Positions 19,572-23,746 of a stretch of DNA of 64,000 nucleotides are shown here, one piece after another. The position numbers and the translations under genes are program-made. Numbering within the stretch: the first letter of the stretch is position 1; the number at the start of each line of letters is the position of its first letter. Origin of the DNA: Chamaelirium japonicum (Eukaryota > Streptophyta > Magnoliopsida > Liliales > Melanthiaceae); the NCBI GenBank assembly GCA_947650365.1, contig OX393549.1, forward strand, positions 88,530,170 through 88,594,169. Direction: 5' to 3'. The notes beneath the pieces were generated by a model. That model saw only the letters and a program-made list of their open reading frames with translations, made no database searches and was not told where the DNA came from.

Positions 19572-19687
19572 TATATATATATATATATATATATATATAT
19601 ATATATATATATATATATATATATATATATATATATATATATATATATATATATATATATATATATATATATATATATATATATATA

Positions 19688-20074
19688 GGGTCGGGATCCA
19701 GAAACACGCTATTTTGCCACAGAGTTAAACACACATCTCCAAAACCCTAGATAGAGGCTTCAAAATTTATTGATTTTTTGTGAGGATTATAATCTTGCCT
19801 TAGATAGCACATCAGCAAAAAATCAGCACATTCTAAAACCTATAGACTAATCAAATATTCCCTTCAATTTAACGGTTAAAATGAACGATCGATAAAGCTC
19901 TTTAGATTTGATGCACCTAAAGGGTTTAGAATGTGCTGATTTTTTATGGATGGGCTATCTAAGGGTAGTTGATCATCCTTACAAAAAATTAACAAATTCT
20001 AAAACCTCTATCTAGGGTTTTGGATGATGCGTGTCTAACTTTGTGGCAAAGTAATGTGTTTCTGGATCCCGACC
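19688..20074. mobile_element. Palindromic unit 1
   Basis: It starts GGGTCGGGATCCAGAAACAC and ends GTGTTTCTGGATCCCGACC. The arms also carry GATTTTTTGTGAGG and CAGCACATTCTAAA motifs shared with units 4 and 5. The loop is near 19860-19890. It is bounded by TA tracts of about 115 and 79 bp. Confidence 0.8.
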
Positions 20075-20153
20075 TATATATATATATATATATATATATA
20101 TATATATATATATATATATATATATATATATATATATATATATATATATATAT

Positions 20154-20891
20154 GGGGAGGGATACTCTTACTCATGACCTCTTACAACCAACAATTATTA
20201 ATGATCTGGACCATCCATCGGAATCCGATGGATGGTTGAGATCAAAAATCCCCCTCTCTCTATCTCTCTCTCTCAATCGTGTAACCCCCTATCGATCCCC
20301 CTCCCCCTCCGACCCCGACCTTCCCCTCCGACCATGACCGTCCCCTCCGGCCTTCAGCTCCAGCAGCCCCTTCCCCTCCACCCCCTCCCATCCGTCGAGC
20401 CACCCCGCCGGCGCCAATCGCAGCCCCGATCTCGCTGAAATTGGGGCTGCTAGCGGGGGGGTCGGGGCTGCTGCGATCGGTCGAGGGAGATGGCCAGAGC
20501 CAGAGGGGAAGGGGGCGGTCGGGGTGCTGCGCGTCGGGGCCGGAGCTGGAGCTGAAGGCCGGTCGGGGTGGCTCGACGGACGGGAGGGGGCCGGAGCTGA
20601 AGGCCGGTCGGGATGGCTCGACGGACGGCGGGGATGGCTCGACGGACGGTGGGATGGCTAAACGAGCGACGGGAGGGGGCTGGAGCTAAAGGCCGGAGGG
20701 GACGGTCGGGGTCGAAGGGGAAGGTCGGGGTCGGAGGGGGAGGGGGATCGATGGGGTTACACAATTGAGAGAGAGAGAGATAAAGAGCGATGGGGATTTT
20801 TGATCTCAACCATCCATCAGATTCCGATGGATGGTCCAGATCATTAGTAACTATTGGTTGTAAGAGGTTATGAGTAAGAGTATCCCTTCCC
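20154..20891. mobile_element. Palindromic unit 2, GC-rich core
   Basis: The outer arms GGAGGGATACTCTTACTCAT and its inverse enclose mirrored GGACCATCCATCGGAATCCG and GACCTTCCCCTCCGACC motifs. The core near 20400-20650 contains repeated GGGATGGCTCGACGGACG. ORFs here are by-products of the GC-rich repeats. Confidence 0.8.
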
Positions 20892-20982
20892 TATATATAT
20901 ATATATATATATATATATATATATATATATATATATATATATATAGAGAGAGAGAGAGAGAGAGAGAGAGAGAGAGAGAGAG

Positions 20983-21368
20983 GAATGTTACAGTGAGCTG
21001 TGAGCTACGAGTGGAGAAAATGAGCTGCCCTCATTTTGATCCACCTAGGAGTTTTGGAATTTGATGAAATTTGGTGAGGGTCTTATCTAGGATAAGATGA
21101 TCATCCTCACCAATTTTCATCAAATTCCAAAACTTCTAGAGTCATCAAATGGTAGAAGCAAAATTAACAGTGACTGCGGACGGTTAATAGTGCTTCTACC
21201 ATTTGATGACCCTAGAAGTTTTGAAATTTGATGAAAATTGGTTAGGATGATCATCTTATCCTAGATAACACCCTCACAAAATTTCATAAAATTCTAAAAC
21301 TCCTAGGGGGATCAAAATAAGGGCAGCTCATTTTCTCCACCCGTAGCTCACAGCTCAACGTAACAGCC
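20983..21368. mobile_element. Palindromic unit 3, flanked by GA and CT tracts
   Basis: The arms contain GAGCTGTGAGCTACG and GGAGAAAATGAGCTGCCCTC with inverse copies at the right. On the left a (TA)n(GA)n tract leads in and on the right a (CT)n(TA)n tract leads out, so the microsatellites are themselves mirror images. The centre is near 21170. Confidence 0.8.
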
Positions 21369-21606
21369 CTCTCTCTCTCTCTCTCTCTCTCTCTCTCTCT
21401 CTATATATATATATATATATATATATATATATATATATATATATATATATATATATATATATATATATATATATATATATATATATATATATATATATAT
21501 ATATATATATATATATATATATATATATATATATATATATATATATATATATATATATATATATATATATATATATATATATATATATATATATATATAT
21601 ATATAT

Positions 21607-21993
21607 GGGTCAGGTTCAATGTACACTGTTTTTGCACTCAATTTTTTACATCGATTTTCAAATCATTAGATAGAGGTTTTATAACTTCTTGATTTTTTGT
21701 GAGCATAATCACCTTGTCTTAGATAGCACGTCCACAAAAAATCAGCACATTTTAAGGCCTCCAAGTACATCAAAACTAAAAGACTTTATCGACCGTCCAT
21801 TTTAATCGTTAATTTAAAGAGCATATTTAATAAGTCTAGAGGCTTTAGAATGTGCTGATTTTTTGTGGATGTGTTATCTAAGACATGGTGATTATGCTCA
21901 GAAAAAATCAAGAACTTATAAAGCCTCTATCTAATGATTTGAAAATCGGTGTAAAACATTGAGTGCAAAAACAATGTCAATTGAACGTGACCC
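21607..21993. mobile_element. Palindromic unit 4
   Basis: It begins GGGTCAGGTTCAATGTACAC and ends in the near inverse AATTGAACGTGACCC. The arms carry TTGCACTCAATTTTTTACA. It is a close sister of unit 5 and about the same length (387 bp). Confidence 0.82.
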
Positions 21994-22132
21994 TATATAT
22001 ATATATATATATATATATATATATATATATATATATATATATATATATATATATATATATATATATATATATATATATATATATATATATATATATATAT
22101 ATATATATATATATATATATATATATATATAT

Positions 22133-22520
22133 GGGTCAGGTTCAATGGACACTGTTTTTGCACTCAATTTTTTACACCGATTTTCAAAATTATTAGATAG
22201 AGGTTTCAGAACTTCTTGATTTTTTGTGAGTATAATTACCTTATCCTAGATAGCACGTCCACAAAAAATTAGAACATTCTAAAGCCTCTAAGTACATCAA
22301 AACTAAAAGGCTTTATTGACCATCCATTTTGATCGTTAATTTGAAGAGCACATTTAATAAGTCTAGAGGATTTAGAATGTGCCGATTTTTTGTGGATGTG
22401 TTATCTAAGACAAGATGATTATGCTCACAAAAAATCAAGAAATTCTAAAACCTCTATCTAATGGTTTGAAAATCGGTGTAAAAAATTGAGTGCAAAAACA
22501 GTGTCCATTGAACCTGACCC
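22133..22520. mobile_element. Palindromic unit 5, sister of unit 4
   Basis: It begins GGGTCAGGTTCAATGGACAC and ends GTGTCCATTGAACCTGACCC, an exact inverse over the outer 20 bp. It is otherwise highly similar to unit 4, suggesting local duplication or two insertions of one family. Confidence 0.82.
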
Positions 22521-22626
22521 TATATATATATATATATATATATATATATATATATATATATATATATATATATATATATATATATATATATATATATATA
22601 TATATATATATATATATATATATATA

Positions 22627-23247
22627 CATGAGGGGTGTTACGTTGTGCTGTGCGCTGCGAACCCCCAGCCGTCCGATCGGCGTGAATCGAACGGCACAAA
22701 TCCTTTCCACCCCGGTTAAAACACTGTGACTCTTGGCCATCCGATCGACGTGAATCGAACGACACAAATCTTTTCCGCCCCGGTTAAAAGGTGTAACCGT
22801 TCGATCGAATGATCGAACGGATGAGATCCACGGGATCTCATTCGAATAGGACAGAAAACATAATTCCGTAGACCCGGTTTTTTGTCCTATTCGAATGAGA
22901 TCTCGAACGGCTACACCTTTTAACCTGGGCGGAAAGGATTTGTGCCGTTCGATTCACACCGATCGGACGGCTGGGGCTGATTATCGCATTATCGTATGAA
23001 CTAGCAATCATGATTTTTTGTCATATTCGAATGTTTCCCATGGATCTCATCCGTTCGATCATTCGATCGAACGGCTATACCTTTTAACCGGGGCGGAAAG
23101 GATTTGTGTTGTTCGATTCACGTCGATCGGACGGCGGGACGTTCCCAGTGTTTTAACCGGGGCGGAAAGGATTTGTGCCGTTCGAGTCACACCAATCGGA
23201 CGGCTGGGGATTCGCAACGCACTTTGGGCACAAAGTAACACCCCTCA
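22627..23247. mobile_element. Palindromic unit 6 with internal repeated motif
   Basis: The outer arms TGAGGGGTGTTACGTTG and AAAGTAACACCCCTCA are mirrored. Inside, AACCGGGGCGGAAAGGATTT followed by a GTGCCGTTCGATTCAC-like segment recurs in both orientations, about five times, with CTATTCGAATGAGATC nearby. It looks like nested palindromes. Confidence 0.75.
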
Positions 23248-23334
23248 TATATATATATATATATATATATATATATATATATATATATATATATATATAT
23301 ATATATATATATATACATATAGAGAGAGAGAGAG

Positions 23335-23671
23335 TAGTGATACATTGCGGCCGGTAACGTGCGGCACCCCCTTCGGGGATATTTTCGAAATTTTTTTTTT
23401 GGGGATTGATCACCCACCCTTGGATTGGACATACAAAAAATTTTAGCCCGATCCAAAACTTGTAGACCGTCCAAATGTGTTGATCAAAATGGCGAAAAAA
23501 ATGAACGACCGATAAAAGATCAACACATTTGGACGGCCAACAAGTCTTGGATCGGGCTGAAAGGTTTTGTGTGTCCAATCCAAGGGTGGGTGATCAATCC
23601 CCAAAAAAAAAAATTCCGAAAATACCCCCGAAGGCGGTGGCCGCACGTTACCCGGCCGCAATGTATCACTA
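23335..23671. mobile_element. Palindromic unit 7, flanked by GA and CT tracts
   Basis: TAGTGATACATTGCGGCCGG at the left is mirrored by CCGGCCGCAATGTATCACTA at the right. The arms include GGATTGATCACCCACCCTTG. The flanks are (TA)n(GA)n and (CT)n(TA)n, as in unit 3. Confidence 0.8.
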
Positions 23672-23746
23672 CTCTCTCTCTCTCTCTCTCTCTCTCTCTC
23701 TATATATATATATATATATATATATATATATATATATATATATATA

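Follow-up and report, generated by a model that had tools for sequence, protein, structure and literature searches.

How do seven different palindromes come to stand head to tail, with a run of TA at every junction? The question is raised by a 64,000-nucleotide stretch of Chamaelirium japonicum DNA (assembly GCA_947650365.1, contig OX393549.1, positions 88,530,170 to 88,594,169; hereafter the window), in which seven nearly complete palindromes of 336-738 bp follow one another between positions 19688 and 23671, each junction being a pure (TA)n tract. The analysis leads us to conclude that the array very probably consists of non-autonomous hairpin MITEs, which inserted successively into one (TA)n microsatellite by means of a Mutator-type transposase acting in trans.

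All seven units are palindromic MITEs and are described here on the forward strand. From a (TA)58 tract at its left edge (19572-19687), the array runs through U1 (19688-20074; 387 bp, ends GGGTCGGG..CCGACC), a (TA)n tract (20075-20153), the GC-rich U2 (20154-20891; 738 bp, ends GGGGAGGG..CCCTTCCC), (TA)27 followed by (GA)18 (20892-20981), and U3, a near-perfect hairpin of 387 bp (20982-21368). (CT)17 and then (AT)n/(TA)n (21369-21606) lead to U4, a 387-bp member of the U5 family (21607-21993), which is separated by a (TA)n tract (21994-22132) from U5 itself (22133-22520; 388 bp, ends GGGTCAGGTTC..GAACCTGACCC). Another (TA)n tract (22521-22626) precedes U6 (22629-23247; 619 bp), which has internal repeats and is known from one copy. 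The sequence (TA)n, CATA, TA(GA)n (23248-23335) joins it to U7 (23336-23671; 336 bp, ends (GA)nGTAGTGATAC..), and (CT)15 followed by (AT)n (23672-23746) forms the right edge. All eight TA runs are uninterrupted repeats, with lengths of 44-203 bp, exact lengths being those of the assembly, on which they depend. Only U3 and U7 additionally carry (GA)n on the left and (CT)n on the right. Outside the array, just two other TA runs of at least eight units were found in the window (12850-12969 and 36117-36164), so that no further pair of TA runs brackets an element.

The original prediction of seven near-complete inverted repeats with TA at each junction was borne out. Alignment of each unit half against half gave scores of 110.5-190, compared with means of 6.7-13.5 (standard deviations 2.7-3.9) for 100 letter shuffles per unit, which places the palindromy of every unit more than 30 standard deviations above its own shuffles. 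U2 and U6 have long arms and a poorly palindromic centre, and the other five units are palindromic almost to the middle. Hairpin formation, also anticipated, is supported by folding prediction: U3 is predicted to form a nearly unbroken hairpin (-277.9 kcal/mol, z -33). The Rfam search of the window returned nothing in the array, its sole match being a weak, 5S rRNA-like one at 376-495.

Where at least four sequence families had been proposed, sequence comparison yields five groups, namely U1/U4/U5, U3, U2, U6 and U7. U4 and U5, which share an orientation, are 91% identical. U1 is related to them more distantly, with 79-80% identity in opposite orientation and 72% in the same one. U3 shows weak similarity to the U1/U4/U5 group (about 72% over parts), and U2, U6 and U7 share with these four units nothing beyond short or simple stretches.

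The array begins directly at what appears, on sequence, to be the 3' end of a Helitron-like element on the forward strand (19200-19571, left limit nominal). Helitrons end in a 3' hairpin followed by CTRR, insert beside a T, and encode Rep/helicase in autonomous copies. On these hallmarks we tentatively take the left neighbour to be Helitron-like: a hairpin at 19545-19560 is followed by CTAG at 19568-19571 and then by the T of the TA tract. Similar ends, with a hairpin-like stretch and CTAG running directly into TATAT, occur in seven other fetched loci, and six of these (L006, L015, L026, L036, L077 and L083, the exception being L005) lie at a TA run. Further away on the left, at 5.4-5.8 kb of the window, an ORF encodes a PLP-enzyme domain of Cys/Met metabolism, and on the right, at 27-31 kb of the window, there are four annexin ORFs. 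None of the 16 ORFs of the window was found to contain a MULE transposase domain. An autonomous MULE acting on these units would be expected to have GGGTCAGG or GGGTCGGG ends.

The possibility that these units exist only here did not materialize for U1, U3 and U5 when the window's own genome (1.52 Gb, 3253 contigs) was searched. Each search gave at least 40 scored places, nearly full length and with the window's own included, at 96-100% identity for U1 (5078 first-look candidates), 95-100% for U5 (4635) and 95-100% for U3 (4804). Long matches to U2 were distant relatives (66-78%), and short end pieces reached 94%. Relatives of U7 were present in four fetched loci (L024, L034, L060 and L083), and relatives of U6 among the fetched loci were confined to the window's own locus. 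An exact 21-mer scan with the U1/U4/U5 core gave no match in viral contigs and two in prokaryote contigs, both in Propionispira, which we take as chance.

Arrays are the rule around these copies. Of the 58 loci fetched for U1 and U5, each 2.5-3.4 kb long, 49 (23/28 and 26/30, respectively) held two or more elements that had terminal inverted repeats and stood between TA tracts, with a few overlapping or near-duplicate loci left unmerged. These larger loci are the best-scoring matches and not an unbiased census. Across 88 loci, some of them overlapping or near-duplicates, we counted 265 distinct TA-bracketed segments, and inverted-repeat arms reached at least 40 bp in 214 and at least 100 bp in 159. 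TA was found on both sides in 67 of 72 best-scoring copies of U1, U5 and U2, a count to which U3, U6 and U7 do not belong. Element copies without TA flanks were sought in the window as well as in the 88 larger loci, giving 28 rows, none convincing. Such copies, against which the original prediction had set itself, do occur as a minority, some being U5 copies selected for this property and three of them lying in ordinary DNA; most copies are TA-flanked. Copies without TA flanks have also been published for related families. Looking for empty sites in the fetched loci by asking which segments adjoin gave too much noise to be useful, the adjoining segments being repeats as well.

How an element came to lie in TA can be read from the phase of its flanks. 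Because whole TA units are gained or lost without a change of phase, the letters at the left and right edges of an element give the parity of the target duplication. A..T or T..A marks an even or absent duplication, and T..T or A..A an odd one. Duplication of a TA dinucleotide gives A..T only, and tracts grown from inverted-repeat ends would be expected to form mirror images, which are even. When ends were placed by alignment, with end substitutions treated as such, the phase was odd in 63 of the 67 U1, U5 and U2 copies with TA on both sides, and both odd classes were represented (39 TT, 24 AA). The odd copies comprised 27 of 28 for U1 (15 TT, 12 AA; one AT), 30 of 32 for U5 (20 TT, 10 AA; two TA) and 6 of 7 for U2 (4 TT, 2 AA; one TA); copies lacking TA on one side were left out (U1 2/30, U5 2/34, U2 1/8). 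Without such placement of the ends, a count based on terminal motifs gave odd phase in 31/36 copies of U1/U4/U5 and 17/19 with the U2 motif, and among all segments with terminal inverted repeats and no GA/CT it was odd in 116/169. In the window, U3 and U7 are even, U1 is even if its ends are left unaligned (its last base is T, not C), and U6 is odd by raw count and even if its CATGA end is read as TATGA. Of six copies of a small family (GGATCGGATGACC), just one had odd phase.

Target-site duplications point in the same direction. From 93 match rows we selected by eye 20 U5 copies that had a G or C near the end. In four of them a duplication could be read, always 9 bp long, and three of the four lie in ordinary DNA. 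Of these duplications, three were detected by script (TTCTTGTTT, TTCTGCAAA and ATATATCTA) and one by eye in the same output (ATGTTTACA). An exact duplication was not found in the other 16 selected copies, although three of these had a 9-bp repeat that differed at one or two positions; in one copy the right end was not found. A length of 9 bp is the typical duplication of Mutator-like elements (PMC4486113), and related published elements have duplications of 9-10 bp (PMC4486113, PMC8449440, PMC5907723). Thus the 8-11-bp duplication of the Mutator superfamily is seen directly for U5, and for U1 and U2 through odd phase only. Odd phase in both classes together with the 9-bp duplications is better explained by a transposase inserting into TA tracts already present than by recombination, by transposons that duplicate a TA dinucleotide or by TA grown from element ends. 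The original idea that elements land again and again in TA tracts is therefore supported for U1/U4/U5 and U2, given the TA on both sides of their best-scoring copies, the prevalence of arrays and the odd phase.

One alternative, which we consider very unlikely, is that circular copies with TA filler recombine homologously into TA tracts, as for SaTar elements (PMC5907723). Recombination accounts for entry into repeats with no visible duplication, and U5 does occur as tandem multimers joined by AT linkers of 8-10 bp (C8:10541727.., C12:49515421.. and C11:11884685..), though these fit neither staggered insertion nor recombination simply. However, a pure TA-to-TA exchange should keep the phase of the source copy, whereas TT and AA occur together within a family, and four U5 copies have 9-bp duplications. 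Furthermore, the two classes do not cluster on the element trees. When the classes were shuffled 500 times, as few or fewer changes were obtained in 94% of cases for the 25 U1 copies and in 26% for the 26 U5 copies, a weak test on near-star trees of very similar copies; this lack of clustering is as expected if phase is picked anew at each insertion.

It is highly unlikely that the element ends generated the TA tracts after insertion into ordinary DNA. GA/CT tracts do behave in this way, being strictly polar at all 72 segment ends (GA left 30, CT right 42, opposite 0). Since a GA target would run in the same direction on both sides, we conclude that the GA/CT tracts arise at the element ends, a view that the pineapple authors also take of their elements (PMC8449440). 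A mostly mirror-image arrangement is also found around the 125-bp and 150-bp families and U7. Grouped by terminal motif, these were A..T in 36 of 48 copies, T..A in none and odd in 12. With grouping by clustering, in which memberships differ, the 150-bp family was A..T in 31 of 44 and T..A in two. (Single-linkage family 1 lumped unrelated families and was rejected in favour of regrouping by terminal motif.) Four U3 copies caught by motif comprised three A..T and one A..A. In contrast, inverted-repeat ends predict an even phase for U1, U5 and U2, which are odd in nearly every copy, and the U5 copies L097, L099 and L101 lie in ordinary DNA with a TA tract at neither end. The original suggestion that microsatellites grow from the ends of the elements is thus supported for GA/CT and contradicted for the TA of U1/U4/U5 and U2; it may apply to the phase-locked families, U7 among them.

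A Stowaway or other Tc1/mariner origin of the palindromes, with duplication of TA, is extremely unlikely. The TA flanks and the A..T phase of most short-family and U7 copies agree with such an origin, but a 2-bp duplication gives A..T only, whereas U1, U5 and U2 show TT and AA, and U5 has 9-bp duplications. We also take the GGG ends of the elements here to differ from the Stowaway end. The Stowaway reading is contradicted for U1/U4/U5 and also, from seven copies, for U2, whereas it may apply to U7 and the short families. Finally, the row is almost certainly not a product of tandem duplication or faulty assembly, since the likeness and shared orientation of U4 and U5 are offset by their 9% divergence, the opposite orientation of U1, the five sequence groups in one row and the many other loci with similar mixed rows.

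The A..T excess in the 125-150-bp families and U7 is not predicted by a free 9-bp duplication. These families are mostly phase-locked and perhaps reflect a second insertion mode; the pattern would be expected from strict TA duplication, from an enzyme that chooses its phase and equally from TA tracts that grow out of the ends. We therefore raise, tentatively and as one joint proposal, the possibility that TA tracts are a landing ground common to mechanistically different transposons. These might include MITEs with odd, 9-bp duplications in both phases, the 125-150-bp families and U7 (perhaps with U3) locked as TA-element-TA, and a Helitron-like element at the edge. Phase might then be a durable record of the insertion chemistry of each unit, legible even after the tract has expanded.

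For the array as a whole, we return to serial insertion by a Mutator-type transposase. Supplied in trans, the enzyme would insert MITEs one by one into a single (TA)n, and a 9-bp staggered cut within the run would leave TA sequence on either side of the element, each side again a target for the next insertion. Slippage would then lengthen the TA tracts and would later add the GA/CT tracts at element ends. TA runs are described as shorter at empty sites in Medicago (PMC4486113). What we observe is the array itself, copies and arrays of U1, U3 and U5 across the genome, odd phase in U1, U5 and U2, and 9-bp duplications in U5; the transposase, the order of insertion and the use of the same kind of enzyme by U2, U3, U6 and U7 we infer.

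The newer part of this work is the evidence from phase; for U1, U4/U5 and U2 it speaks for staggered insertion by a transposase rather than recombination. Our limited literature search found no earlier paper with a phase-parity argument for Mutator insertion into microsatellites, and one may still have been published. Since the phase is unaffected when whole TA units are added or lost, left and right phase in any assembled genome separates odd from even or absent duplications with no need for empty alleles, and the question of how elements reach TA tracts thus becomes testable on existing genomes. That route is called unclear in one study (PMC8227079), and another proposes that circles recombine (PMC5907723). 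The U families additionally illustrate how hairpin DNA may accumulate in rows.

The structure of the array is already known from SaTar arrays, Ac-mMITE clusters, MuTAnT and MiMs. As in those systems, TA-microsatellite flanks predominate in our material, and intact elements of different families stand in microsatellite-joined rows; 8-11-bp duplications in members outside microsatellites were observed for U5, in four of the 20 selected copies. TA-microsatellite targeting is also attributed to Micron in rice and TAFT in maize (PMC5907723, PMC8449440, PMC4486113, PMC8227079). The MiMs of carrot and other plants are similarly MITE families within TA stretches, the families in question being those of carrot (PMC8227079). 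MuTAnT of Medicago truncatula shares the foldback structure, the location in TA tracts and the 9-bp duplications; it has GGGG ends, longer TA at occupied than at empty sites and an autonomous mudrA-like partner, whereas the 16 ORFs of the window gave no MULE domain, and arrays are not among the features described in the consulted text (PMC4486113). The Ac-mMITEs of pineapple are also TA-targeted, Mutator-like MITEs with 9/10-bp duplications, and carry 5' GA and 3' TC ascribed to slippage. Clustered copies make up 46.1% of their full-length copies, in 4024 clusters (PMC8449440). Their lengths are 510-570 and 210-270 bp with inverted repeats of 140-180 and 40-70 bp (PMC8449440), compared with 336-738 bp here and arms reaching nearly to the centre in five of the seven units. 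A close parallel in organization is SaTar, whose short non-autonomous elements with terminal inverted repeats form TA-joined, mixed-family rows, some copies having 9-10-bp duplications as U5 does (PMC5907723). A run of seven is accordingly not beyond what is known, as the original prediction had supposed, since mixed, non-nested, microsatellite-joined modular arrays of MULE-derived elements are described in guayule, rice, citrus and sorghum, the last with a cluster of eight (PMC5907723). The SaTar authors favour recombination as the origin of such rows (PMC5907723), whereas the phase data presented here favour staggered insertion.

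Helitron-like 3' ends were also observed at TA runs. Immediately upstream of the array of seven palindromic MITEs (19572-23746), a hairpin-like stretch followed by CTAG|T resembles such an end (19545-19571) and adjoins a TA run, and TA runs are likewise adjoined by Helitron-like 3' ends of this form at six loci elsewhere in the genome (L006, L015, L026, L036, L077 and L083). At L006 and L026, a copy of U1, the 387-bp MITE of the array at 19688-20074, lies only a few TA units from the Helitron-like end.

Further TA tracts occur in the window. At 36117-36188, a (TA)24(GA)12 tract is followed by a stretch beginning GGTAGCCTACTCC, which appears to be the terminus of another element, and a similar stretch is present in locus L029. 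Self-comparison of the window reported no inverted repeat adjoining a 120-bp TA tract at 12850-12969, which is possibly an empty landing site.

A foldback-like structure at 37550-37933 has arms of 96 bp (94%), is not bracketed by TA and contains a tRNA-primer-like TGGTTTCAGAGC stretch; it may be what is left of an LTR or TRIM element. A pair of 1331-bp direct repeats, 99.8% identical (46084-47414 and 48459-49789), may represent the LTRs of a young retroelement whose interior is short. Separately, a 5S rRNA-like match lies on the minus strand at 376-495 (41 bits versus a gathering score of 38).

Ends of U5, the related 388-bp MITE at 22133-22520, recur at three sites in the same genome, C8:10541727-10542945, C12:49515421-49516632 and C11:11884685-11885821 (L057), the sequence itself having been read for the C11 case only. 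The period of ~395-398 bp at these sites matches one U5 element together with a short linker of AT, a pattern like that of multimers joined head to tail.
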